Part shown: positions 39,061 through 52,803 of the stretch, in pieces
How positions within the stretch are numbered: the first letter of the stretch is position 1
How the letters are laid out: each line of letters begins with the position of its first letter
Source of the DNA: Triatoma infestans
Lineage: Eukaryota; Arthropoda; Insecta; Hemiptera; Reduviidae
Length of the DNA stretch: 64,000 nt
NCBI GenBank assembly: GCA_011037195.1
Contig: JAAEAF010006875.1
Coordinates: 1 to 64,000 of the forward strand
Direction: 5' to 3'
The notes under the pieces: model-generated
Told to the model about the DNA's origin: nothing
What the model saw: only the letters and a program-made list of their open reading frames with translations
Database searches by the model: none
Translations under genes and position numbers: made by a program

Positions 39061-39559
39061 AGGGCAAAACTGTTGTTGCTTAAACTGGACTCGCATGGAG
39101 TGTTCTGCTGTAATCATCACACCTAGTGTAATACAAACAGAGTGAGAGAGCATGAATAAGTGTGGCGAAGTGTGCAGTGTTTAACTATACTTTGCCTGCA
39201 GGTAAACTAATACCAGGTACTTGTTGCACACATTAACTATATCTGCAAGCTCTCTGTGTATTTCAGTGTTGGGAGTTATCAGTGTCAGTGCTGTGCATGT
39301 CAGAATGGCCACAGGCACGCCAAGATCTCCAAAGAAATGTCTAGTTCAGATCTTGAATCGGAGCTATTAGTATTCAGGCCCTGTATTAGACCTGACAGAT
39401 GTGATTGCCGGGTAAATATTAATCGGGTGATTAAGCTGAGATTTAATGTCGGAATACTAACTATACCTGTTTAGAAGAACTATCACCTTTACTTGCTCTT
39501 ACTGCAAAGTGAGAGGAAGTATTATGATAGCGAAAAAAGTGATTTTTTTTTAGAAATTG

Positions 39560-39625
39560 ATCTGTGTGTGTGTGAATGTGTGTGTGTGAGTGTGTGTGTG
39601 TGTGCAAGAGAGAGAGAGAGAGAGG
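39560..39625. repeat. (GT)n and (GA)n microsatellites
   Basis: A GT-rich run followed directly by a GA run. Confidence 0.85.
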
Positions 39626-40489
39626 TAAATACGGAAAGAGTTGTGTACGTACGACATCGTTTGTTAGAAATTCCCAGATGACGCAATTATGTAAATATTG
39701 TGATTAACTTTATTTGTTGGGTCGAATATACTCTTGGCAACACCAAGATTTCTGTACAATTGGTTAATCCACCCCAGTCTTCATTTCTAGTAAACCAGGA
39801 GAGTTCACCAGGATGTATGGTAAATAAATATAATATTAATAGTACCTTTATTTTCAAGTAACTATGACTTCTCGAAAATCAATTCGAAATAAGTTTAAAT
39901 TTCAATAGCTTTAAGAAGAAAATTAGATATTCAAGTGTATTTATATATCAATTAGAATTTCATTAAATAAAGACATACTTGAATATTTGGAATATTTTGT
40001 ACAAAACCTTGGATATTCAATCCAATTAGGATTGCTTTAATATATTATTCTCCCCGTTGTTAGTAATTACACAGTACAACTTTAATACCATTCTGTTATC
40101 TAAGTACATCCTTTATTAAAGACCTTATTTAAAGCACATTCTAATTCTAATTAAATATATTATATAAAAGGAAGTGTTCATTAAATTTTAATTATTTATA
40201 ACAATGTTTTTTCTCAACTGTTATTTCTAAGTGCTATTAAGTAAGATTTAACTTACAGATTTTGAAATAACTGGACCAAAAAATCTGGTTAATAATCGAA
40301 CTGAGTCTGACTCGAAATCATCATTGGAAGATGAAACACTGATTCATTCGGTATTACAAAAAAGATCATCATTCTTTGAATGAATGATTAATGCTTCGGA
40401 ACATTTTCTTTAGAATAAATTGAAATTAATTCGCCAATCGGGCGAGTAAATTGGCCGGCCAGTCAATCATTTAAAATTAATAAAAAAAA

Positions 40490-40767
40490 AAAATAAATCT
40501 GGTATGAAACGCTCACACTACTTTCACTTACTAGAATATAAATATCATTATTTACATAATTTGCATCAAACTTGGAATTTTTACTAATTTAAATAACTTC
40601 AACATTATATGAATAGCTGGGAGTATATAAACTGAAAATGACACATGAGAGTAGCTGCTCCAGAAAACCCCCTATAAATCTACTTCCTCGGAGAAATTTG
40701 TCAAAACAAAAGTGACAAGTTGATACATAGATGTGTATACCATATTTAAAGAAAACTTATTCTTATC
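40490..40767 (-). repeat. Family A repeat, left half of the Polinton insertion target
   Basis: On the minus strand this reads as the family A 3' half ('ttttctttaaatatgg', 'gtcacttttgttttgacaaattt'). It stops at the Polinton and continues at 52804 with the 'gattatctc...ttttttccg' portion. Removing the Polinton and one target copy gives a continuous family A segment. Confidence 0.55.
40762..40767 (+). repeat. Target-site duplication, left (CTTATC)
   Basis: Six bases immediately left of the Polinton, identical to 52798-52803. Six-base duplications are the rule for Polinton/Maverick integrases. Confidence 0.95.
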
Positions 40768-41522
40768 AGTAGGGGGAGAAATGGCGGTTCTGGCGCACCT
40801 TTTTTGAGCAGCCAATCAGATTGCAGTATTTCTCCCCACCCCTCCCAAGCCACGCCCACCGACCAATCATCGAACTCGATGAGCACTTAAGCCACGCCCC
40901 CACCACGCCCACCGGCCAATCATCAAACTGGGCGAGCACTTAGGCCACGCCTACTTACCCCCACTCCTCTCCAACTGACCAATCATCGAACTGGATAAGC
41001 ACTTAGGCCACGCCCACCTTCCCCCCACCACCGGTCAATCATCGAACTGGATGAGCACTTATGCCACGCCCACTTACCCCCTCCACTTCCCCGTCATCGA
41101 AATCGACGAGCACTTAAGCCGCACCCACTTACCCCCACCACTGACCTATCATCGATTTCAACAACTCTCTAGACCATGCCCGCTTACCTCCTCCCCTTAA
41201 CTTATCATCCAAATCGATGACTCCATTTTCTTTCCACCCCCACCCCTTAACTTATCGTCCAATCCGATGGCCGTATTTTCTTCTCCCCACTTCTTGACCT
41301 AACATCCAATCCATTACCCCCACTCCTGAATTTATCATCCAATCCGATGACTCTATTTTTATCCTCCCACTCCTAACCTAACATCCAAATAGATGACTCC
41401 ATTTCTTTCCACCTCCATGGTCAATCCATCCCCACAACAAGATGGCGGAACCTAACACCGTAACACACCACCCCTCTCCTGACTCTAGGCTGGAGGGGTA
41501 TTTTTTATTTTTATTTTATATG

Positions 41523-41612
41523 AAAAAACTTGTCTTACCTGTGATTCGATCCTACAATCTTTAGGTTGGAAGTCCATCATCATAACCAGTCGGCCACAAT
41601 GATCCTCTCGCT
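41523..41612 (-). ncRNA. tRNA-like RNA polymerase III cassette in left terminal repeat
   Basis: On the minus strand: box A TGGCCGACTGG (41586-41596), box B GGATCGAATC (41543-41552), then a T6 run (41523-41528) 14 bases after box B. Spacing is as in a tRNA gene, but the acceptor and anticodon stems do not pair, so it is not a working tRNA. It is either a fossil SINE head carried in the terminal repeat or a small RNA unit. The mirror copy is at 51961-52045. Confidence 0.45.
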
Positions 41613-41855
41613 AGTTATACTTTTCAACGTACACTTCTATCTTAACCCGCGCACTATCATAATTTTATTCGCCTCGCCCCACTCACAAAAAATTCAATTA
41701 TAATTAAAAAAAAAAAAAACAATATGGCGGAGTGACATCCAACTTTCACCACACAATCTAAATCATTTTTAAAAAGATTGACTTACCCCTTCCAGCTCCC
41801 TGCTGCTGCTGCTGATATTAACACGACGCGCACTTACACAGAACTGAACCTCCTT

Positions 41856-42005
41856 ATGGCAAAACAATCTACTATAGTAACGTTTATCCCCACTCCTATG
41901 ACGTCACTGCTAGTTGGGGCATGCGCATTATTGATTTTATCATATTGTATAACAAAAACCACTGCCTTTTCAATATATTATTCGTATGACGTCACACAGC
42001 GATAG
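41856..42005 (+). CDS. Small ORF in left terminal repeat with one membrane segment
   Basis: From the first ATG, 49 codons (MAKQST...). A hydrophobic stretch MTSLLVGACALLILSYCI could span a membrane. The open frame extends upstream to 41778 without an ATG. The mirror copy in the right repeat differs by one residue. Two CRE motifs lie inside the frame, so the conservation may belong to the DNA sites and not to a protein. Confidence 0.25.
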   Translation: MAKQSTIVTFIPTPMTSLLVGACALLILSYCITKTTAFSIYYSYDVTQR

Positions 42006-42218
42006 TATTGCCAGTGCCTTATTTATTACCACTGCCTTCTAGACAAATCCCCCATTTAGATAACGTCACACACTCTATAGTGATTCACTGCCAATCGCAA
42101 TATATCGATTACAAATATCGATTATCCATATCAATTAATATCGATTTTATGAATATAATTTATTAATAAAAAACTAACAAAACCACTGCCTTTTCAATAT
42201 ATCATTCGTGTGACGTCA
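41899..42218. promoter_or_regulatory. CRE (TGACGTCA) motif cluster, left repeat
   Basis: Perfect 8-bp palindromes TGACGTCA at 41899-41906, 41987-41994 and 42211-42218, with half-sites at about 42062 and 42303. These match the binding site of CREB/ATF-type bZIP factors. The mirror cluster is at 51353, 51577 and 51665. Confidence 0.6.
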
Positions 42219-42562
42219 CAGCTAATAGCATTGCCACCGCCTTATAGATTAAAAATGTACATATTTATTACCACTGCCTTCTAGACAATTTCTGTTCATA
42301 TAACGTCACACAACCTATAGTGTACCACTGTCAATCGCAATATATCGATTGCAAATATCGATTATCTAAATTGATTAATATCGATCTTATAAATAAAATT
42401 TATTAATAAGAAAAACACTATCTATTACTTCTACCAGTTATTGCATCACCTTTTGAAATTAACTTTGTACTAATAAAATTTATATATATATCTATTCTTA
42501 CCTTAATCACTTTGTATTCTTTTGTTTATTGAACTTTGTAATCAAAACAACATATATCTTGC

Positions 42563-42960
42563 CTGTCCGAACATGTTAGTTACTTATTAAGAAAAATGCA
42601 CAGAAACTACAATGAGTCATCCAGGAAATGATTTATTAATACTTAATCCTATTATTTAAAAATAAAACTTTGTACTCATTACCTTTCTTGCCTGTTCGGA
42701 CATGTTACCACAGGTCTTCTTAGCATGTTTTACTTAATCCTATACTTAATCCTATTATGAAAAAGATTTGTATATACAATGAGTCATCATGCATGTCTCA
42801 ACATGCATCAGCCTGCATTTATTATTCATAGCTTGTATTATAATTTTGTTTACCCCTCTTTGTTCAGCATTCGCTTTAAGCTTTCTCATCACGTCAAGGT
42901 GGGGGTAATCGAGAAAGTTTTATAATAAAATAAAATATAAGGAAATTAATAAAAACAAAA
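42563..42960. other. Inner flank of left repeat; AP-1-like sites, no gene
   Basis: Contains two copies of 'cttgcctgt(c/t)cg(a/g)acatgtta' (42563, 42687; the mirror is near 50896) and TGAGTCA at 42613 and 42780. No ORF. Confidence 0.5.
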
Positions 42961-42981
42961 TAAAATATTTTTTTTTACTCA

Positions 42982-42987
42982 TTTATT
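42982..42987 (-). terminator. Poly-A signal for the 172-aa gene
   Basis: AATAAA on the minus strand, about 330 bases beyond the stop at 43317, followed by an A-run on the same strand. Confidence 0.45.
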
Positions 42988-43201
42988 GAAACATAATGCA
43001 AAATATTTACAGAAAAAAAACAGAAAACAAACTTCAAATTTAAAATAAAAATTAACTTCTTCTTAATACAAAATAACAACTTAGGAAAATGCAAGTAGAC
43101 AGAGAAATGTTCAGTATCGGAATTACTTTTTCTAGGTTTTGCCTTAATACACATTCAAACATTGTACAATTCATTCAAGGTTTACGGGGTTTTTAGAACC
43201 T

Positions 43202-43295
43202 CGCCAGTGACCAGCAGTCAGGTTTACGGATATTTCTACCACGCCAGTGACCGACATTCAAGGTTTGCGTGCAATTTAATGCATCGCCAGTGACC
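43202..43295 (-). repeat. Three-copy motif repeat in a 3' untranslated region
   Basis: GGTCACTGGCG (minus) occurs at 43202-43212, 43242-43252 and 43285-43295, each followed by a 'cgtaaacctgact'-like phrase. The period is 40-43 bases, just downstream of the 172-aa gene stop. Confidence 0.7.
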
Positions 43296-43316
43296 ACATT
43301 CACACACACACACACA

Positions 43317-43835
43317 TCAAGGCAAAAACATTTCTGCATCATTCCAACCAAACTTACTATTTAGCCAATTGTTAATGACTTGAATTCGATACTGCGTACA
43401 TTTCTCTCTACATGTGTTATGTTTAATACAGTGGTTGCCTTTTTCTACTGCTTGAAGTGAATCAATTTTCGGACAACCATAATCTTCCAAGTTGATTACA
43501 CAACAATTGTACAAATTTTGCAAGAGAAATCTTTTCTTATCATAACCCTTAACAAATACAAATTTATAGTTACAATCAATACATTTGAAAATATCTCTAA
43601 TCACTTCATATTCAACTTCCCCATCATTCCATCTGATTTTATGATAATAATTTTCTAACCAATAATTAGTTCTTCTACTTTTATCTGTTTGTTTATGTTG
43701 TATTGGCGGTTTGAATATCCAGTGACGAACAGTTTGATAGTTATAATCAAAAAGTGATAGCTCTTTAACAATATAACCTCCTACACTATCCACAAAGCAC
43801 TGGAAGTCAGCAATCAGTACGCCTGTCTGAGCCAT
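43317..43835 (-). CDS. 172-aa accessory protein, possible RNase H-fold (exonuclease-like)
   Basis: Last gene of the Polinton block. I start it at the ATG giving MAQTGVLIADFQCF because the open frame above it begins at a GTG and a TATA/initiator pair fixes transcription just upstream. A hydrophobic strand ending in D-x-Q near the start, a strand FVFVKGYDKKRFL in the middle and a late HNTCREKC...INNWL helix follow the strand/helix order of DEDD exonucleases. Most expected acidic residues are missing, so an inactive or diverged nuclease fold is possible. The WIFKPP and W-x-x-G-x-x-x-Y features resemble, as I recall, uncharacterised invertebrate mobile-element proteins. The fold is inference; the gene itself looks real. 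Confidence 0.7.
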   Translation of the reverse strand: MAQTGVLIADFQCFVDSVGGYIVKELSLFDYNYQTVRHWIFKPPIQHKQTDKSRRTNYWLENYYHKIRWNDGEVEYEVIRDIFKCIDCNYKFVFVKGYDKKRFLLQNLYNCCVINLEDYGCPKIDSLQAVEKGNHCIKHNTCREKCTQYRIQVINNWLNSKFGWNDAEMFLP

Positions 43836-43871
43836 ACTGAACACTGAGCCAACAGTTCACACCTTTTTATA
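43836..43871 (-). promoter_or_regulatory. Promoter of the 172-aa gene; TATA overlaps the capsid stop
   Basis: TATAAAAA at 43864-43871 contains the TAA stop of the capsid gene (43867-43869). TCAGT initiators lie at 43843-43847 and 43836-43840; the second puts its A 33 bases after the first T of TATA. The ATG at 43835 leaves a leader of about 3-10 bases. Confidence 0.65.
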
Positions 43872-45099
43872 CCATACGGCGTACAATGCCAGTTAGAGGA
43901 TTATATTCTACCACCCTATCATGTATAATAAGGCAATATGCCGTTGTGTTGGGCGGGAACGGATTTTTTGATTCAAATTCTAATCTTACATCAACTGGAC
44001 CCGTTTTGATAGATTCAGACTGTTTAGAACAATCTATTACAATTAAGGGTGTTTTCTCTTTAAAATTTCGCCAAGAAGTTAGAGGTTTCATTTGTTCCCC
44101 ATAATATGACATTTGAAAAGAAGCATACATGTGATACAATAGTGCATAACGATTAGCTGAGAAATCTATGTTCAAATCATCGTATGGAAAAGCTTTACAA
44201 TTTAAATAAAGTTTCACATTTGAAACATTGCAATGGTCAAAATGGCTAGCATTGCTTTCCACATTATTTGCTCGTTCAGTTTGAAAAGCTAAAATGAGGT
44301 AGCGCGGCTTTTCCAGCTGACTTGATGTTTTCACCGGCCAGATTTGTCTTTGAGTTGCCGGCAATAGTGGATAATCATAGAGTTCCCAGCTTCTAAAACT
44401 TAGTGAAAATACCTTTTCAGATTTGAGATGACGCATAAGAGCTAATCTCTGATGTTCGTTGACGGCAACGTAGGGCAGCTTCCAGCATAGTTTCACCAAT
44501 TCTATTTTACAGTTTTCTACCGCATCTTCAGCTCTCTGTCGGCTGAATTTGTAAGCGTTTCCATCTTGTCTGCTTCTAACGAGTATCAATTCTTGTTTAA
44601 CATTGATCACAATCTTCTGATAGTCTTCACAAAATCCCAGTAGTGATGATAGAGGAATGCATAAATTAAAGTATCCCTCATTTGAAGTGATGTTCAGCGT
44701 ATCACTCTGAGGATAGCACCAGCCCCAGTTTTCTATGTATTGACAGCCGTCGTTAAGTGAAACCAAGCCTTTAAGGGTGCAAGCAATTCCTGGATTTCTT
44801 ACACGATCTATTTCAACTCCACTCAGTTCATATCTTATTTCATCAAATAGAAATGCAAATGCATTATTGGTTAATTTTGATGAAGTTGGTATTGTTGAGC
44901 CGTCTTCTTTTAAAAACTTACCCTCCAAATAGAGTAAACTTTGACTGGGCAGCGTATATAGATCTTGATGTTGTACACTAATACGTATTTCATCACCAGG
45001 CAACAGTTTTGATGATGCATAAGGGTGATGTGAATGCAATTCTATGCATTCAATTGAATTGTCGAACAGTCGTCTTTCTTCCAAATCTAACACTTCCAT
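43867..45099 (-). CDS. Major capsid protein candidate (double jelly-roll type), 410 aa
   Basis: Intact and the longest ORF of the element. It is rich in beta-strand-like segments with few long helices. Conserved-looking blocks include an N-terminal IELHSHHPYAS, EIRISVQHQDLYTLPSQSLLY (residues about 35-60), FLFDEIRYELSGVEIDRVRNPGI (about 88-110), and a C-terminal YPYDDLN-like to ALLYHMYASFQMSYYG block (about 310-345). To my knowledge these resemble capsid-type proteins of Polinton-like elements in invertebrates; the double jelly-roll assignment is inference from that and from context (ATPase, protease, integrase). Length is short for a Polinton capsid (commonly 500-700). Its ATG lies inside the end of the 53-aa ORF, and no separate TATA box was found, so both may share one transcript. 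Confidence 0.65.
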   Translation of the reverse strand: MEVLDLEERRLFDNSIECIELHSHHPYASSKLLPGDEIRISVQHQDLYTLPSQSLLYLEGKFLKEDGSTIPTSSKLTNNAFAFLFDEIRYELSGVEIDRVRNPGIACTLKGLVSLNDGCQYIENWGWCYPQSDTLNITSNEGYFNLCIPLSSLLGFCEDYQKIVINVKQELILVRSRQDGNAYKFSRQRAEDAVENCKIELVKLCWKLPYVAVNEHQRLALMRHLKSEKVFSLSFRSWELYDYPLLPATQRQIWPVKTSSQLEKPRYLILAFQTERANNVESNASHFDHCNVSNVKLYLNCKAFPYDDLNIDFSANRYALLYHMYASFQMSYYGEQMKPLTSWRNFKEKTPLIVIDCSKQSESIKTGPVDVRLEFESKNPFPPNTTAYCLIIHDRVVEYNPLTGIVRRMV

Positions 45100-45248
45100 A
45101 TTGGTGATAACACGTAGTAACCTGCCGCTTGAAGAAAGCGAATATTGCTGTTGGTTATCGATGTTCTCTCGTCAACTGTTCTCACTGGAATGATGGTTTT
45201 CTCCTCAGCAGTTGTCCTTATATTCACTCTCCTAAAGTCTAAACCCAT
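45087..45248 (-). CDS. 53-aa ORF overlapping the capsid start
   Basis: First ATG after the TATA/initiator at 45264-45299, about 20 bases into the transcript. It encodes a small polar protein (MGLDFRRVNIRTTAEEKTI, VDERTSITNSNIRFL) and its stop TAG overlaps the capsid ATG region by 13 bases (45087-45099). No family recognised. It could be a small virion or regulatory protein, or an upstream ORF controlling capsid translation by reinitiation or leaky scanning. Confidence 0.5.
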   Translation of the reverse strand: MGLDFRRVNIRTTAEEKTIIPVRTVDERTSITNSNIRFLQAAGYYVLSPIWKC

Positions 45249-45263
45249 CGCTGTCTGGCGACC

Positions 45264-45299
45264 AAATGAATGCACACGACTATAATCCTTCCTTTTATA
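45264..45299 (-). promoter_or_regulatory. Promoter for 53-aa ORF/capsid; TATA overlaps the protease stop
   Basis: TATAAAAGG at 45291-45299 includes the protease TAA (45295-45297). A TTCATTTG initiator-like site has its A at 45267, 32 bases downstream. Confidence 0.65.
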
Positions 45300-45756
45300 G
45301 GAGATCCAGCAAGTAAAGTAAACACAGCTGTCCACAATTGTTGCTGCCCATTTTTTGATACTGCTTTCTGTTCGATGAAATACGGCAACCTTTTAGATAG
45401 CGGACTAGTTCAGAAGGTGGACTGGCTCCACTGCTGTCGAAGAATTGAGCATAATCCCCTCTTTTCTTATAGCAAACCCAGTGAGTTCCTCTCCCATAAC
45501 TACTATCTAAATTGAAAATGGCTCGCTCATTTTTCCACGGTTTCACTGGAAATTCATCAATCATGAATACCCCTCTAAAATGGGGAATTTTCTTCGATTT
45601 AGCTAATCTGAGTAGATCAAAATTACTCAGCCGCAGACGAGGTAGTCCATCCAGCATTCGTTTAGCTTTACCACTCAATTTAGGAGAATTCCCACCAATC
45701 CGTTTAGGAGTAGGAATGACTCGTTTCTTCTTCTTCTTGTCTCTAGCACGTCTCAT
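45295..45756 (-). CDS. Adenain-like cysteine protease (virion maturation)
   Basis: 153 aa with a basic N-terminus (RDKKKKKR) and the catalytic layout of adenovirus-type C48/C5 proteases. The catalytic His is in GTHWVCY (H92), an acidic residue in FFDSSG (D107), Gln134, and Cys141 in SNNCGQLCLLYL. The Gln-Cys spacing of 7 matches adenain. In adenoviruses and Polintons this enzyme cleaves capsid precursors. All catalytic residues are present and the frame is intact. The start is fixed by a TATA/TCAGT promoter 8 bases upstream. Confidence 0.88.
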   Translation of the reverse strand: MRRARDKKKKKRVIPTPKRIGGNSPKLSGKAKRMLDGLPRLRLSNFDLLRLAKSKKIPHFRGVFMIDEFPVKPWKNERAIFNLDSSYGRGTHWVCYKKRGDYAQFFDSSGASPPSELVRYLKGCRISSNRKQYQKMGSNNCGQLCLLYLLDLL

Positions 45757-45761
45757 GATGA

Positions 45762-45796
45762 ACTGAATCGAAGTTAGCCTCGTCCGGCTTTATATA
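45762..45796 (-). promoter_or_regulatory. Protease promoter; TATA overlaps the integrase stop
   Basis: TATATAAAG at 45788-45796 contains the stop TAA of the integrase C-terminal frame (45790-45792). TCAGT at 45762-45766 has its A 32 bases after the first T. The ATG at 45756 gives a leader of about 8 bases. Confidence 0.7.
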
Positions 45797-46149
45797 AGTA
45801 CATTCTTCACATTCTCCCAGCTGTTGTGTGAATTGTCTAAACCTAGCCATTTCACTAAAACTTTATCACCTTTTCGCTTCATAATCTTCTCCACAAGATA
45901 GATGTCGGGATATTTCACTAGCTGTAGTTCCTCTTGATAAAAACCTCCAGCAATTATTTGCCCTTTATAATCTTGTAGATTATATGTCACTGGTGCGGTA
46001 CTCTTAACTTCTACAACTTTAAATACCTCTGTGGACCATGAAGGATGATAGCCTTTGGCAAACTGCGCTTTATACTTGGATATCCGTACATGATCGCCTG
46101 CTTTGAATCTAGGAACTGGTAGTGATTGTTTTCTTCGCATATACATCAC
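45790..46149 (-). pseudogene. Integrase C-terminal part: SH3-like domain plus chromodomain (second frame)
   Basis: Overlaps the core ORF by about 40 bases in a different frame. FKAGDHVRISKYKAQFAKGY and the following GGFYQEELQLV are the small barrel domain that follows the catalytic core in Polinton and Ty3/gypsy integrases. YLVEKIMKRKGDKVLVKWLG...NSWE (residues about 84-113) is a chromodomain with its aromatic residues (Y, W, W). The open frame begins with GTG and its first ATG is two codons further, inside the core coding region. This is best read as the detached 3' part of one gene, joined by a frame change near 46110-46150, and not as a separate protein. Confidence 0.85.
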
Positions 46150-46717
46150 GTAACAGCCGTTCTTCTACATCCTTGCCTCGTACAGAAACCGGTGCCATTT
46201 TGATCGTTCGATGTTTAGTTTGGTTATATTTCTTCACCAGAGAGTTTATGATGGTCAGCCAATCATAGGATCCTTGTAGGCTAAACATTTTCCACATTGC
46301 AGATTTCAAAGTTCGATTGAATCGCTCAACAATTGAAGCTTTCAAATTACTAAAGGTTGAATAGTGATTTATACCATTCACTTTCATCAGCTTGGCAAAT
46401 ATTCTGTTATAGAACTCCTTGCCATTATCAGTTTGTAGATTGTTTGGCTTCCTTTCCTGCAATACCTTTTCAAATGCTCTACTCACCTCAAGTGCTGACT
46501 TATTCTTAAGGGGTACAGCCCAGGCATATTTGGAAAAACAATCAATCACTGTCAAGAGATATTTGTTGCCTTTGTTGAATCTGGCGTAGGGAAGCATCTC
46601 TACGAGATCAATTTGCCACAAATCGTCTATTCCCTTCAATAAAACTGATCTTCTCTTGAATATTCTTCTTGCTGGTCTATGCAACTCATGCACGATCTGT
46701 TCCTTAACGGATTTCAT
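46109..46717 (-). CDS. Integrase catalytic core (rve family), truncated by frame break
   Basis: 202 aa with the retroviral-like D,D,E triad: D37 in LWQIDLVEM, D97 in QTDNGKEF, E131 in ASIVERFNRT. The basic RRIFKRR stretch and the 'KGIDDLWQ' lead-in are typical of Polinton integrases. It catalyses insertion with 6-bp target duplications, consistent with the flanks. The frame ends at a TAG (46109) just before the C-terminal domains, which continue in the next frame. A fixed mutation, a sequencing indel in 'gcgaagaaaac', or a translational shift could each explain it. Promoter: TATA at 46751-46758. Confidence 0.9.
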   Translation of the reverse strand: MKSVKEQIVHELHRPARRIFKRRSVLLKGIDDLWQIDLVEMLPYARFNKGNKYLLTVIDCFSKYAWAVPLKNKSALEVSRAFEKVLQERKPNNLQTDNGKEFYNRIFAKLMKVNGINHYSTFSNLKASIVERFNRTLKSAMWKMFSLQGSYDWLTIINSLVKKYNQTKHRTIKMAPVSVRGKDVEERLLRDVYAKKTITTSS

Positions 46718-46720
46718 GAT

Positions 46721-46758
46721 GAAATGAGGTGTATTGTAGGTGAGTTTAAGCTATTATA
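46721..46758 (-). promoter_or_regulatory. Integrase promoter inside the end of the 314-aa gene
   Basis: TATAATAG at 46751-46758 is made of the last codons of the upstream gene, just before its TAA (46746-46748). A TCATTTC initiator has its A at 46725, 33 bases downstream. The ATG is at 46717. Confidence 0.6.
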
Positions 46759-47690
46759 CCTCCGTCTCTCAGTTGATCTTCTATTCTTTTTATTTCAACA
46801 CCAGCATTCTTTGTGCTAAATAACATTCTTAATCTGTCTACAAGCTTGTTGGGGTCGACAGGTCCAGCACCTTTTTTCGTTGGAAACAATTTTGAAATCA
46901 CTTTCCTATATTTCATGTTTGTTTTCAGTTCCTTGACTGGTCCAGTTGGACTGTGCCCTTCTTTATGAGCGTTCGTTTGTTGTAGTATTCGCTTGTAATT
47001 ATCGCAATCTGTCTTTTTTACCAGCGTTAAGTTTGGATATTTCATAAATAACAATTCAAAAAGTCCTGGGGTAGCATAAAAGGTATCTTCACCAACAGAT
47101 AAAATGTCTTTACTGATGGAGATCTCCGTGTCACCAATGGTGAACTTCTGGCCATTATAAACTACGCCATATACCATATCCAAATCCTTAGTTTCATTTT
47201 TCATAAATTTTGCAATATAATTTGAGGATATTTCTCCCACTTCTTTCAAATATTTTTCTGAAATTTCTTTTCCTTTGGGCGTGTGTACCAGTTCTCGTAC
47301 TTCTTGCAGCGGTGTAGTTGGAACTGAAGTTCCAGACGACTGTGGAGTACACTTCAGCGGCCCCTTTGCTGGAAGCTCCCGCTCTTCTTCTGGCGAGGAA
47401 TTTGATATTCCGGGTGTTGTAGCCGATTCTAGCTTTAGATATCTTGGTCTTTTTGCTGGTGGTGTTTCGGAAACAACCGGCTCCGGCTTCAGTGTTCTCT
47501 TCAGATTAAGTTGAGACGAATGATCCTCTTGTTTACCCATTAATTCCTTCAAAGGATTCAACAAAGGCTGATATTTCATTTTCAAATATTCATCAGTTTC
47601 TTCCCTGTTTCTCCTTAGCAAGTTATACTTTTCTTGGATTGCTTTCCTAGTGGCGATTATATCGCGCATTGCTTGAGTTGACTCTTCCAT
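46746..47690 (-). CDS. 314-aa Polinton accessory protein, unrecognised
   Basis: I choose the ATG at 47690 (MEESTQAMRD) over the upstream ATG at 47720 because the predicted start of transcription (47705) lies between them. The N-terminal ~60 residues are charged and probably coiled-coil (MRDIIATRKAIQEKYNLLRR). The middle ~90 are low-complexity, rich in P, S, T and E. The C-terminal ~160 residues are globular, with GDTEISISKDILSVGEDTFY, TPGLFELLFMKYP and KRILQQTNAHKEG, and a basic end. The TPGLFELLF/TNAH block resembles uncharacterised proteins I associate with invertebrate mobile elements. A structural or DNA-binding virion role is a guess. Confidence 0.75.
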   Translation of the reverse strand: MEESTQAMRDIIATRKAIQEKYNLLRRNREETDEYLKMKYQPLLNPLKELMGKQEDHSSQLNLKRTLKPEPVVSETPPAKRPRYLKLESATTPGISNSSPEEERELPAKGPLKCTPQSSGTSVPTTPLQEVRELVHTPKGKEISEKYLKEVGEISSNYIAKFMKNETKDLDMVYGVVYNGQKFTIGDTEISISKDILSVGEDTFYATPGLFELLFMKYPNLTLVKKTDCDNYKRILQQTNAHKEGHSPTGPVKELKTNMKYRKVISKLFPTKKGAGPVDPNKLVDRLRMLFSTKNAGVEIKRIEDQLRDGGIIA

Positions 47691-47702
47691 GTCTTGCAAT
47701 AG

Positions 47703-47737
47703 ACTGATTGTTACACCCATATTCAGGGTATTATATA
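47703..47737 (-). promoter_or_regulatory. Promoter of the 314-aa gene inside the end of the ATPase gene
   Basis: TATATAAT at 47730-47737 is formed by the ATPase's last codons (Ala-Tyr-Ile-Ile-Pro), whose TGA stop is at 47723-47725. TCAGT at 47703-47707 has its A 32 bases from the first T. Confidence 0.68.
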
Positions 47738-48412
47738 GGCCTCGAAACCTTTTCGATACCTCCCATCATTAATTTGTCTATCTTTATCCAACACTAGAAA
47801 ACCGTACCTGTCATCTTTCCAACACCAATGACACATTTTTCTAAAGGTTTGAAATTCCATATCAGAGTTGATATGATCGTCATAAATTCGTCGCAGATTT
47901 AATTCATCCTGCCTGAAGAGTATTAGGAAGTTGGCATTTTCTCTCACCAAATGTTTCGGAACTCTAGTATAACTTTGACTTAGGTAAAATATGTCAACTC
48001 CATTGTGACGCCCCATACAAAAGTAAGACCGTACATTATCCTGCTTATCACAAGCAATATCATCGAATATAATGATTGAATTGGGCAGGGCCTCTTTAGG
48101 TGGTGGAACTTGGGAGTTGTCTTCATATTGGAACAATCCAATATCTTTCAAAGGTTGTAATATTTGTGCTAACATCCTATACTTGGGCTGTTGTAAGGAC
48201 TTGGCAAACAAGTAAATATTTTCAAATCTTAGCCCCTTAGGATCATAGATTAAGCTCAACATGAGATTAGTTTTCCCACAATTTGATGGTCCACATATTA
48301 TACATCTAATGGTATCGGGGAACAGCGGACCGTGTTTGGATTCTTTCTTTAAAGAGGCCCCGTCGTCAAGGTTTTGAACAGAGAGGGTGTTATGTTGCTT
48401 TATCAAGCGCAT
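47723..48412 (-). CDS. A32-like genome-packaging ATPase (FtsK/HerA superfamily)
   Basis: 229 aa from the ATG at 48412 (MRLIKQHNTL); the frame above it starts only at a TTG. Walker A is GPSNCGKT (residues 41-48) and Walker B is IIIFDD (113-118). A downstream YLSQSYTRVPKHLVRENAN segment is the conserved sensor/arginine region of poxvirus A32 and Polinton ATPases. It is expected to pump element DNA into capsids. Length is typical. The frame is intact. Promoter: TATA at 48447-48455. Confidence 0.92.
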   Translation of the reverse strand: MRLIKQHNTLSVQNLDDGASLKKESKHGPLFPDTIRCIICGPSNCGKTNLMLSLIYDPKGLRFENIYLFAKSLQQPKYRMLAQILQPLKDIGLFQYEDNSQVPPPKEALPNSIIIFDDIACDKQDNVRSYFCMGRHNGVDIFYLSQSYTRVPKHLVRENANFLILFRQDELNLRRIYDDHINSDMEFQTFRKMCHWCWKDDRYGFLVLDKDRQINDGRYRKGFEAYIIP

Positions 48413-48417
48413 GGTGA

Positions 48418-48455
48418 AGAATAACAAGAATCGCTCTTCCGTTTCTCTTTATATA
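48418..48455 (-). promoter_or_regulatory. ATPase promoter
   Basis: TATATAAAG at 48447-48455 with initiator TTATTCT (A at 48422), 33 bases apart. The leader to the ATG at 48412 is about 10 bases. This one is in intergenic DNA. Confidence 0.62.
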
Positions 48456-48662
48456 TCTTTCGGAAGCTATGTACGCATCGAAAGAAAAACTTATATCTAC
48501 ATAAACATACGCACTCATACATACAAAACCATTACCAACATACACGCACTCTTTTTACAATTTCACACTAAATACTTAAAATACCCGCCACCAATAAACT
48601 TTTGTTTTATTTATTTATATTTGTTTTAATTTTTTGAAGCTGTTGCCCTCCTCCCCCAAAGG
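48456..48662. other. Intergenic gap where no polymerase is found
   Basis: About 200 bases between the zinc-finger gene stop and the ATPase promoter. It is AT-rich and without coding signal. Confidence 0.6.
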
Positions 48663-49259
48663 TTAGAACCGGTTCACGCGCAGAAGGACTCCATCGAACT
48701 CCTTTAGAACCCAGCCGCTTCCCTTTAATGCAGACTCCTCCATCTCCGCTACGATTTTCTTAAAATTTTCATTTAAATATTCTTCGATGGAGGAGTCTTT
48801 GCATATTACTTTATTTTTGGTCTTGAAGGCGCGATCACAGGTTTCACCTTTGACATTTTCAAAGGTCGCCTCCAAGACCAAATTGTATTTGAGGAGAGCG
48901 TCACTTTTTTCCAAGCATTCTGTAAGCAGTCGGTGCAAGATAGCTGTCTGAGCAGATAGAAATTCCATTGCATCAGCTGCTTCAGTGCATGGAAGAAAGA
49001 ATGTTGTAAGAGTCCCTCCGAACGCCGATTCCACTTCATATAGATGTCCCTGAGCGGCATCTATGCGGACTCTTTTAGACATGGCAACTGGCGTGTTATC
49101 GCTACAACGACGCATGTGCGCATTTAACGTCTTTTTTGAGGAGAAACCCTCGCCGCAATTATTGCAGACCTGGCGCTGATTATGCGCAATGCACACGCGT
49201 TCATGTCGATCCTTGTTATATTCCCTTTTAAAATCCTTTTGACAATATTTACACTGCAT
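48663..49259 (-). CDS. Two-zinc-finger protein with GSGW domain, polymerase-less
   Basis: 198 aa. Two C2HC fingers open the protein (C3, C6, H19, C23 and C32, C35, H48, C52), then a linker with a basic KRVRID. The domain at about residues 65-198 ends in SSIEEYLNENF...GSGWVLKEFD...LLRVNRF. In many Polinton/adintovirus-like polymerase proteins a GSGW segment of this kind lies ahead of the DNA polymerase B domain. Here the protein stops directly after it. It may bind element ends or serve as a replication accessory. The polymerase link is from memory of the family and needs a profile search. Confidence 0.7.
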   Translation of the reverse strand: MQCKYCQKDFKREYNKDRHERVCIAHNQRQVCNNCGEGFSSKKTLNAHMRRCSDNTPVAMSKRVRIDAAQGHLYEVESAFGGTLTTFFLPCTEAADAMEFLSAQTAILHRLLTECLEKSDALLKYNLVLEATFENVKGETCDRAFKTKNKVICKDSSIEEYLNENFKKIVAEMEESALKGSGWVLKEFDGVLLRVNRF

Positions 49260-49797
49260 ATTTAAAAAATAAAATAAAACTGTTCACTTATAAATACTTG
49301 CATGCACAATAAATATATATAGAGAGAAAAGTAATAATATAATAATAATACTATATAATAAAAAGAAAAAAAACTACTATATAATAAAACTATAGATATA
49401 CTATATACAAAAGAATTTTTTTTAAAAAAAAGTTATGAAATGAATAGAAAGAATAAAATTGAGAAAAAATAAATAAATAAGAAATTACACTTAGAATAAA
49501 ACAAGAAATTAAACGGATTAAAAAAAAAAGAAAGTTAAAATTAAAAATTAGAAAAAAAAAATATATATTAATCAAAATATGTATTAAATAAAATTGATTA
49601 ATAATTAATAATAATTAATAAATTGGAATAATAATTATTAACAAAAAAAAAAAAAAAGAAAAAATTGTTCAAAAGAAAATATAAAAGTAACAGATACAAA
49701 AAAAATTTAAATTAAGAAAAAATGAAAAATGTACTTGCATAAAAATTAAGATTTAGTTGAGATTACCAAAGCAGTTTACACAAAGAGCACTAAACAC
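49260..49797. other. AT-rich leader or intron of the zinc-finger gene
   Basis: Lies between the predicted start of transcription (49802) and the ATG at 49259. It is extremely A/T-rich. An intron is possible (minus-strand GTAATC near 49760 and AACAG near 49281), but neither site is strong. A second TATA-like site (49287-49292) is too near the ATG. Confidence 0.4.
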
Positions 49798-49835
49798 AGA
49801 ATGAGAATGCGGCGATATTCGTCACGACTTATATA
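49798..49835 (-). promoter_or_regulatory. Distal promoter of the zinc-finger gene
   Basis: TATATAAG at 49828-49835 with initiator TCATTCT (A at 49802), 33 bases apart, the same spacing as the other units. Confidence 0.55.
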
Positions 49836-49982
49836 CCTTCGGATGATTCTCGAAATACTATTGGTTAATATGGATGGCGTGATGCTAGGGAAGGGGGTAT
49901 GTAGACTGTTTACTAGCTAAGAATTGTATGGTGCGTCATCATCATCATCAACATCATTGTAGTTGACAAAATAATTAAAATA

Positions 49983-50668
49983 TGACTCATGGTATTACTT
50001 ATATTTTTCCTTAATCGGATTAAATTTAACAATGTTCGAAGAAAAAAATAATAAACCTTTTAAAATAAAAAAAAGAGATTAAGATAAAAGTAGATTTTTT
50101 TTTTCATAATATAATTAACTATTAACATTGTTAAAAAATTAAAAACCTTTTTCTAGATGAGTCATTGTATATACTTATATTAATCGGATTAAGTATTAGC
50201 AACATTCGAAATAAAAATAACAAACTTTTTAAAATAATAAAAAGGGATTAAGATAAGAAAAATGACTCATTGTATATACTTATATTAATCGGATTAAGTA
50301 GCAGCAATGTTCCAAATAAAAATATGACTCATGGTATTACTTATATTTTTCCTTAACCGGATTAAATTTAACAATGTTCGAAGAAAAAAATAATAAACCT
50401 TTTAAAATAAAAAAAAGAGATTAAGATAAGAGTAGATTTTTTTTTTCATAATATAATTAAGTATTAACATTGTTAAAAAAATTAAAAACCTTTTTCTAGA
50501 TGAGTCATTGTATATACTTATATTAATCGGATTAGGTATTAGCAACATTCGAAATAAAAATAACAACCTTTTTAAAATAATAAAAAGGGATTAAGATAAG
50601 AAAAATGACTCATTGTATATACTTATATTAATCGGATTAAATAGCAGCAATGTTCCAAATAAAAAAAT
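49983..50668. repeat. 342-bp higher-order tandem repeat with AP-1-like sites
   Basis: Two copies of a 342-bp unit (offset between matching TGACTCA sites 49983 and 50325), each made of three related ~100-bp subunits containing 'ttaatcggattaa' and 'gggattaagataag'. TGACTCA/TGAGTCA occurs at 49983, 50158, 50263, 50325, 50501, 50606, and beyond the array at 50762 and 50856. Confidence 0.75.
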
Positions 50669-51352
50669 AAAAAAAATAACAAACATTTTAAAATAATAAA
50701 AAGGGATTAAGATAAGAAATAGATATATATATATTTTTTTTTAAATAAACCTTTGCATGGATGACTCATTTCATAATAGGATTAAATATTAGAAAAACCA
50801 AATAATAAACCTTTTAAAAAGAATGGGATTTACATTTTTGTTGAGACATGCACGGTGACTCATTGTATATACAAACATTCTTCATAAGTAAGGCAAGTAA
50901 CATGTCCGGACAGGCAAGATATACGCTAATTACAGTACAAAGTTTAATAAACAAAAATAATAAAAAAAAAAGATTAAGATAAGAATAAATATATATATAT
51001 ATTTTTTTAATAGGTTTAGTGTTACAAAATATTATGCAATAACTAAGCTGTTGTGGTAGAAGCAGCAGTGTTGTTTTTTATTAATAAAATCGATATTAAT
51101 CAATATGAGTAATCGATATTTCTAATCGATATATTGCGATTGCAGTGGTACACTGTAGGCTATGCGATGTCATCGGAGTAGTAATTGCCTAGCAGGCAGT
51201 GGTAATAAATAAATCAATATGTACATTTATAATCAAAAAGGCAATGGCAATACTATTGGCTGTGACGCCACAGGAGTGGGAATTGTCTAGAAGGCAGTGG
51301 TAATAAATATGTACATTTTTAATCTATAAGGCGGTGGCAATGCTATTAGCTG

Positions 51353-51672
51353 TGACGTCACACGAATGATATATTGAAAAGGCAGTGGTTTTGTTAGTTT
51401 TTTATTAATAAATTATATTCATAAAATCGATATTAATTGATATGGATAATCGATATTTGTAATCGATATATTGCGATTGGCAGTGAATCACTATAGAGTG
51501 TGTGACGTTATCTAAATGGGGGATTTGTCTAGAAGGCAGTGGTAATAAATAAGGCACTGGCAATACTATCGCTGTGTGACGTCATACGAATAATATATTG
51601 AAAAGGCAGTGGTTTTTGTTATACAATATGATAAAATCAATAATGCGCATGCCCCAACTAGCAGTGACGTCA
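51353..51672. promoter_or_regulatory. CRE (TGACGTCA) motif cluster, right repeat
   Basis: Perfect TGACGTCA at 51353-51360, 51577-51584 and 51665-51672, mirroring the left repeat. A TCAGT initiator-like site (51724-51728) and a splice-donor-like GTAAGT (51785-51790) follow on the outward side. Confidence 0.6.
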
Positions 51673-51715
51673 TAGGAGTGGGGATCAACGTTACTATAGT
51701 AGATTGTTTTGCCAT
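51566..51715 (-). CDS. Small ORF in right terminal repeat
   Basis: Mirror copy of 41856-42005; one residue differs in the longer frame (Leu for Phe). Same caveats. Confidence 0.25.
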   Translation of the reverse strand: MAKQSTIVTLIPTPMTSLLVGACALLILSYCITKTTAFSIYYSYDVTQR

Positions 51716-51960
51716 AAGGAGGTTCAGTTCTGTGTAAGTGCGCGTCGTGTTAATATCAGCAGCAGCAGCAGGGAGCTGGAAGGGGTAAGTCAATCTTTTT
51801 AAAAATGATTTAGATTGTGTGGTGAAAGTTGGATGTCACTCCGCCATATTGTTGTTTTTTTTATTTATAATTGAATTTTTTGTGAGTGGGGCGAGGCGAA
51901 TAAAATTATGATAGTGCGCGGGTTAAGATAGAAGTGTACGTTGAAAAGTATAACTAGCGA

Positions 51961-52045
51961 GAGGATCATTGTGGCCGACTGGTTATGGTGATGGACTTTC
52001 AACCTAAAGATTGTAGGATCGAATCACAGGTAAGACAAGTTTTTT
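51961..52045 (+). ncRNA. tRNA-like RNA polymerase III cassette in right terminal repeat
   Basis: Box A at 51972-51982, box B at 52016-52025, T6 at 52040-52045. It would be transcribed outward toward the element's end. See 41523-41612. Confidence 0.45.
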
Positions 52046-52797
52046 CATATAAAATAAAAATAAAAAATACCCCTCCAGCCTAGAGTCAGGAGAGGGGTGG
52101 TGTGTTACGGTGTTAGGTTCCGCCATCTTGTTGTGGGGATGGATTGACCATGGAGGTGGAAAGAAATGGAGTCATCTATTTGGATGTTAGGTTAGGAGTG
52201 GGAGGATAAAAATAGAGTCATCGGATTGGATGATAAATTCAGGAGTGGGGGTAATGGATTGGATGTTAGGTCAAGAAGTGGGGAGAAGAAAATACGGCCA
52301 TCGGATTGGACGATAAGTTAAGGGGTGGGGGTGGAAAGAAAATGGAGTCATCGATTTGGATGATAAGTTAAGGGGAGGAGGTAAGCGGGCATGGTCTAGA
52401 GAGTTGTTGAAATCGATGATAGGTCAGTGGTGGGGGTAAGTGGGTGCGGCTTAAGTGCTCGTCGATTTCGATGACGGGGAAGTGGAGGGGGTAAGTGGGC
52501 GTGGCATAAGTGCTCATCCAGTTCGATGATTGACCGGTGGTGGGGGAAGGTGGGCGTGGCCTAAGTGCTTATCCAGTTCGATGATTGGTCAGTTGGAGAG
52601 GAGTGGGGGTAAGTAGGCGTGGCCTAAGTGCTCGCCCAGTTTGATGATTGGCCGATGGGCGTGGTGGGGGCGTGGCCAAGTGCTCATCGAGTTCGATGAT
52701 TGGTCGGTGGGCGTGGCTTGGGAGGGGTGGGGAGAAATACTGCAATCTGATTGGCTGCTCAAAAAAGGTGCGCCAGAACCGCCATTTCTCCCCTACT

Positions 52798-52803
52798 CTT
52801 ATC
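52798..52803 (+). repeat. Target-site duplication, right (CTTATC)
   Basis: Identical to 40762-40767. Confidence 0.95.

Follow-up and report, generated by a model that had tools for sequence, protein, structure and literature searches.

Polintons, also called Mavericks (Polintoviricetes), encode a double jelly roll capsid protein, a protease, an A32-type ATPase and an rve integrase between long inverted repeats, insert with a 6-bp target duplication, and are usually seen as self-synthesizing because they carry the protein-primed DNA polymerase PolB. Internal-deletion derivatives are a known kind, and satellite genomes, defective-interfering genomes and virophages depend on helpers for replication functions. 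Here, we analyzed a Polinton-type element of 12,030 bp (positions 40768 to 52797) in a 64-kb stretch of Triatoma infestans DNA (contig JAAEAF010006875.1, positions 1 to 64,000; the window). The element has all of the features listed above except a complete polymerase, its PolB being cut to the N-terminal 198 residues. At 12.0 kb, it also falls below the range of 12.7 to 24.6 kb given for intact vertebrate Polintons (PMC8097293). Given that only this part of PolB is left while sister copies have the full protein, we class the element as a PolB-deleted derivative of Polintons and do not regard it as autonomous. It probably represents a capsid-encoding, nonautonomous lineage that originated by an internal deletion of about 3.2 kb and is complemented in trans.

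The PolB remnant and the deletion behind it

An earlier note on this DNA had described the element as lacking PolB. Consistent with this, none of the eight window open reading frames (ORFs) scanned has a polymerase domain, and in a six-frame search of the 64-kb window, PolB proteins matched only at about 48597 to 49259, an N-terminal fragment, with the rest of the window having no match at an E value of 0.01. What the note took for a separate zinc-finger gene in this region (48663 to 49259, minus strand) is, judged by alignment to a sister PolB, the N-terminal 198 residues of PolB and not an independent gene. The first 198 residues of the PolB in sister copy L033 align with the whole ORF at 68% identity, and nearer PolB-bearing relatives of the fragment (C54, C132, and C12540; 86%) have frames of 1,216 to 1,217 amino acids (aa). 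"PolB absent" in Polinton annotation can thus mask a PolB N terminus labeled as a zinc-finger gene.

The remnant consists of two C2H2-type zinc fingers (about residues 1 to 55) and a terminal protein (TP)-like domain (about residues 81 to 198). The latter has a little-finger/PAD-like fold with the order beta-alpha-beta-beta-alpha-beta. The predicted linking residue, Ser181, lies between helix 2 (H158-178) and strand 4 (E183-197) and is invariant across the 11 sequences of alignment A1; in position, it fits the linking Ser/Tyr of PRD1/adenovirus-type TPs.

We searched the genome (941 Mb; 13,959 contigs) for relatives; as these searches score the best candidates only, all genome counts given here are lower bounds. 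Four sister copies, L031 to L034, were fetched upstream of capsid genes. In two of them, a long frame separates the zinc-finger region from the ATPase: L033, whose capsid is 98% identical to that of the window, carries a PolB ORF of 1,213 aa that matches DNA_pol_B_2 (PF03175; E = 1.1e-26), and L032 (capsid 78%) has a 993-aa PolB frame and then a second frame of 309 aa that overlaps the first. Both share with the window the order of fragment or PolB N terminus, ATPase, a 324-aa ORF (p324), integrase, and protease but still have the approximately 3.2 kb, encoding the vOTU-like region and the polymerase, that the window lacks. Of the remaining two, L034 resembles the window in having no PolB, and L031 (capsid 62%) gave no match to the window fragment within the fetched stretch.

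The distinct PolB-free lineage proposed by the earlier note is contradicted by the PolB of L033 and L032, which sits between the zinc-finger sequence and the ATPase. A lineage that never had PolB is ruled out by the same sisters, where PolB stands at the predicted place. In 20 further capsid copies sampled, the C terminus of PolB adjoined the ATPase in 14, a remnant was present in 5, and 1 had neither. The comparison of same-genome copies that the note had suggested gave a divided result, with several lacking PolB (L034 and 5 of the 20) and others carrying it (14 of the 20). The PolB search of the genome returned at least 39 rows, 11 of which cover at least 1,200 of the 1,213 residues without a stop; potential polymerase sources are thus present in the genome.

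The junction and spacer (48428 to 48665, minus strand) contain a TAA stop, about 30 PolB-homologous bases, and then sequence resembling an A-rich spacer. As PolB homology reaches about 30 bases beyond the last codon of the fragment, the breakpoint lies near 48635. Past it, the sequence is approximately 70% identical over 130 to 156 bases to the A-rich spacer found behind PolB in 7 of 14 PolB-bearing stretches, the other 7 giving shorter matches only. PolB-less frames end in ...GVLLRVNRF, followed by TAA or by CAA and other sequence, whereas PolB-bearing frames go on from NRF as QPLGG, LPLGG, or TPLGG. The distance between fragment and capsid gene is approximately 3.56 kb in most PolB-less copies and approximately 6.7 kb in PolB-bearing ones, meaning that about 3.2 kb is missing. 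This comparison took in 102 major capsid protein (MCP) rows and 76 of 150 fragment rows (at least one relevant row, C12505, was left out). By spacing, 37 MCP rows were PolB-bearing, 15 fell below 4 kb, 1 was of another type, and 49 had no listed fragment; C1158 (150 bp) and C2107 (decayed; 62% match) are atypical within the 15. The deletion starts some 10 codons after PolB codon 198 and ends in the A-rich spacer, having removed the vOTU-like region and the polymerase and left the zinc fingers and the TP-like domain. Within the deleted vOTU-like region, the candidate catalytic residues Cys30 and His120 are invariant in alignment A2, although the structure model is poor (pLDDT, 60).

Three further observations concern the end of the TP domain. 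The CAA-to-TAA change at this point occurs in the young clade of PolB-less copies and in L103 and L104 and is absent from L102 and L105 to L107, reflecting either parallel change or recombination. At C13672:83961-87583, PolB is present as two frames, a TP part (230 residues) and a polymerase part (from residue 203; 1,012 residues), which meet at the TP/vOTU border. In L032 (C79, 1785 to 2384), the first 200 residues of PolB are identical to Rhodnius prolixus protein P0121, with 94% identity overall across 857 residues; this may be a mosaic with a boundary near the TP/vOTU border or the product of a recent transfer.

Spread of the deletion and exchange with PolB-bearing copies

When the junction was used as a DNA query against the genome, at least 40 matches were obtained, of which 32 span it (25 of them full length, 87 to 100% identical), 7 are PolB-bearing and end at base 106 to 108, and 1 is unclear. 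Three copies have perfect duplications of their own: CTTATC in the window, CACCTA in C536, and TGGAAA in C3908. The 32 shared junctions, together with three different duplications, indicate that the deletion is ancestral and that the lineage has moved. The earlier view of an ancestral absence thus stands for a multicopy lineage (32 of 40 matches share the junction), but the absence itself arose by a deletion of approximately 3.2 kb. The same junction at 32 or more loci rules out a deletion confined to one copy. With these loci and the three different perfect duplications against it, an assembly artifact or a one-off deletion in the window copy has next to no probability. In C13348, two equal-scoring PolB-less remnants (39425 to 40006, minus strand, and 45690 to 46271, plus strand) lie inverted about 5.7 kb apart.

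PolB-less and PolB-bearing elements have also exchanged sequence. Between the window and L033, protein identity is 95 to 98% in p324, the integrase core, the protease, and the capsid protein and 93% in the chromodomain part, but only 84% in the ATPase and 68% in the fragment. L103 and the PolB-bearing L066 show 2 differences in the first 190 aligned bases of the fragment and 7 to 16 per 100 afterwards. The capsid gene of C5323 has 7 to 11 synonymous differences from those of five PolB-bearing copies, compared with 21 from that of the window, despite a fragment of the PolB-less type. These mosaics show exchange between the two kinds of element. The two kinds also share their ends: the motif AGTAG followed by GGCGGTTCTGGCGCACC is common to the window, the PolB-less C536, and the PolB-bearing C13435 and C6548, with variants in the PolB-less C3908 and the PolB-bearing C132. 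The genome thus houses PolB-bearing relatives, some with uninterrupted frames, whose end motif is that of the PolB-less copies and which have traded segments with them.

Replication in trans and the role of the remnant

A single deletion event would have founded all PolB-less copies. The protein-primed PolB of full-length elements would then copy PolB-less genomes by recognizing the shared ends, and the products, possibly packaged in their own or shared capsid proteins, would be inserted by their own integrase where it is intact and by a shared integrase elsewhere. The lineage would in effect act as a satellite or a defective-but-transmissible genome of the full-length Polinton. It differs from satellites, defective-interfering genomes, and virophages in deriving from the helper itself, in retaining capsid genes, and in integrating. 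The earlier note had considered a polymerase borrowed from the host or from autonomous Polintons, or some other route of replication; complementation by autonomous Polintons is the best-supported of these options, and the host and other routes are disfavored. Movement without any Polinton polymerase, using host polymerases or only the integrase as in an ordinary DNA transposon, would be compatible with integrase residues 40 to 308 being open in four of seven PolB-less copies. Ends of the PolB-bearing kind, the retention of the capsid, and mosaicism suggestive of common replication make it improbable.

Several points weigh against trans-complementation. Ends, mosaicism, and coresidence are the only support for replication in trans, for packaging, and for which element serves as helper, and chromosomal gene conversion could generate mosaicism without coreplication. 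Both ends were located in three of six PolB-less copies examined, with C12971, C12804, and C5323 yielding one end only, and the integrase frame is broken in three of seven. The virion gene set may be incomplete, as no minor (penton) capsid protein was identified; neither the 175-aa nor the 324-aa ORF matched a family above the cutoff. In favor of trans-complementation, in the MCP genes of seven PolB-less copies, synonymous differences outnumber nonsynonymous ones in 18 of 21 pairs (window versus C5323, 21 and 8, respectively); however, the three exceptions all involve C12971, and the constraint may partly stem from time spent in PolB-bearing backbones, as C5323 exemplifies.

Whether the remnant has a role in trans-complementation is a separate matter. 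It could be a working stand-alone TP that primes the replication of PolB-less genomes in concert with PolB supplied by full-length copies, comparable to the split between pTP and polymerase in adenovirus. In favor of function, 18 of the 32 junction loci are at least 95% identical, and the frame is open in 17 of these 18 (16 stop-free over residues 1 to 198 and C7460 over residues 7 to 198). The zinc-finger Cys/His residues and Ser181 are retained in all 17 sequences compared (16 young PolB-less copies and L103). Against it, the C4358 remnant is in two pieces in different frames, older PolB-less copies have stops in the remnant, and omega is 0.62 to 0.69 in PolB-less compared with 0.20 in PolB-bearing fragments. 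Conserved positions are not avoided by changes, either (6/40 versus 13/88). For the 19 PolB-less fragments, the log-likelihood is -1627.4 with omega free and -1629.4 with omega fixed at 1 (kappa of 4, the end of the grid tried in that fit), which is marginal at best. The trees held 26 fragments, 19 PolB-less and 7 PolB-bearing, and left out L101 (C7460, with an unalignable start), L032, L033, L068, L070, L071, and L074. Purifying selection had also been considered from the L103-window dN/dS of 0.30 (P = 1e-4 to 8e-3, depending on kappa), which was not counted because both sequences are mosaics.

It is about as probable as not that the remnant is inert, a by-product of the deletion that has escaped decay through its young age or through frequent repair by recombination with PolB-bearing copies, with only the ends mattering for trans-mobilization. 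The relaxed omega, the null conserved-site test, and the swapping of fragment segments with PolB-bearing copies all fit this explanation, as do young-clade nonsynonymous and synonymous counts consistent with neutrality (window versus L099, 12 and 6, P = 0.19 to 0.44; versus L038, 9 and 7, P = 0.04 to 0.16). The survival of a whole domain in a deletion product does not, nor does the intact frame at 17 of the 18 junction loci with at least 95% identity. A stand-alone TP is possible but unproven, and we regard it as rather unlikely. Like the stand-alone TPs of adenovirus and PRD1-like phages, as characterized in PMC11071308, the remnant is a separate TP-fold gene with a Ser between helix 2 and strand 4; unlike them, it has N-terminal zinc fingers and a polymerase outside its own genome, and its priming activity is only predicted. 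A protein search with the 198-aa remnant for stand-alone TP relatives, limited to proteins 0.55 to 1.75 times its length, gave 98 candidates, none with an E value of ≤1e-3. The combined possibility of a transmissible Polinton satellite with its own capsid genes, integrase, and TP primer, borrowing only the polymerase from full-length relatives, is unlikely; if true, it would show in nature today the kind of TP/polymerase split that has been proposed for adenovirus origin.

Among the open-licence papers listed by literature searches, no title or abstract opening announced a PolB-less, TP-keeping Polinton with capsid genes and an integrase at 32 or more loci. Here, a capsid-encoding PolB-less lineage has persisted beside PolB-bearing relatives, so that trans-complementation between Polintons, with helper and satellite in one animal genome, can be tested directly. 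With zinc fingers and a TP-like domain as the sole part of PolB retained, the lineage also offers a concrete model for the splitting of a fused TP-PolB into the adenovirus TP and polymerase.

Genes, ends, and layout of the window copy

All genes found are on the minus strand: the PolB remnant, ATPase, p324, integrase, protease, capsid, and a 175-aa ORF. The capsid, protease, ATPase, and integrase set reported previously was borne out by profile and structure-set matches. The double jelly roll MCP (43867 to 45099) matches PF21738 (E = 6.6e-119); it has at least 102 matches in its own genome, and its nearest protein is from Rhodnius prolixus (89%). The adenain/Ulp1-like maturation cysteine protease (45295 to 45756) matches African swine fever virus S273R in the PDB set (E = 2.1e-4), with no match in Pfam and NCBIfam scans. 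The A32-type packaging ATPase (Pox_A32; 47723 to 48427) matches PF04665 above the curated cutoff (E = 7.5e-6). Searches of viral contigs found no relatives of the capsid or ATPase. Neither the 175-aa ORF (43317 to 43844) nor p324 (46746 to 47720) has a family match above the cutoff; the former is uninterrupted in 26 of 30 capsid-match stretches (L003 of these 30 is the window itself).

The integrase is, as the note had it, the gene without an intact frame. Its rve catalytic core (46109 to 46717; PF00665, E = 2e-15) is out of frame with the C-terminal part carrying a chromodomain (45790 to 46149; PF00385, E = 2.4e-6), while L033 and L032 have both in a single frame. Of the 30 capsid-match stretches, 23 have an open frame over residues 40 to 308 (in L018 and L021, the match begins at about residue 60), and the window is among the 7 broken. 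Of the PolB-less copies, C536, C3908, C12971, and C5323 are open; the window, C12804, and C9833 are broken at different places, so the breaks are copy specific.

Beyond its ATPase, L031 (C743, 5209 to 7606) has ORFs of 628 aa and 136 aa that resemble a Penelope-type element by eye only, the 628-aa ORF having no Pfam match, and between its protease and integrase (704 to 1585) lies a 293-aa ORF that looks RNase H-like by eye.

The Polinton features tested, namely, inverted repeats, a 6-bp duplication, and AGT-type ends, are all present, and the previously described boundaries at 40768 and 52797, near-identical ends, and perfect 6-bp duplication were reproduced. CTTATC lies directly on both sides (40762 to 40767 and 52798 to 52803; unstranded). 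The left terminal inverted repeat (40768 to 42310, plus strand) has the tip AGTAGGGGGAGAAATGGCGG, and the right one lies at 51261 to 52797 (minus strand); the arms are approximately 1.5 kb each and 98 to 100% complementary in the main aligned blocks. The AGT-type ends recall the 5'-(AGT)2 motif given for vertebrate Polintons (PMC8097293). The terminal repeat of C12804 is 99.2% identical to that of the window over 1,526 bases. Between 40000 and 53500, no tRNA or Rfam match reached the gathering score. An AT-rich, repeat-containing region without an ORF of 100 aa (49260 to 51100; unstranded) is 99.6% identical to sister C12804 over 1,843 aligned bases. Between the PolB remnant and the right repeat, it includes two tandem units of approximately 343 bp (49973 to 50668), and GC-rich, GC-skewed tandem units of approximately 55 bp compose the outer part of both terminal repeats (40844 to 41140 and 52375 to 52717).

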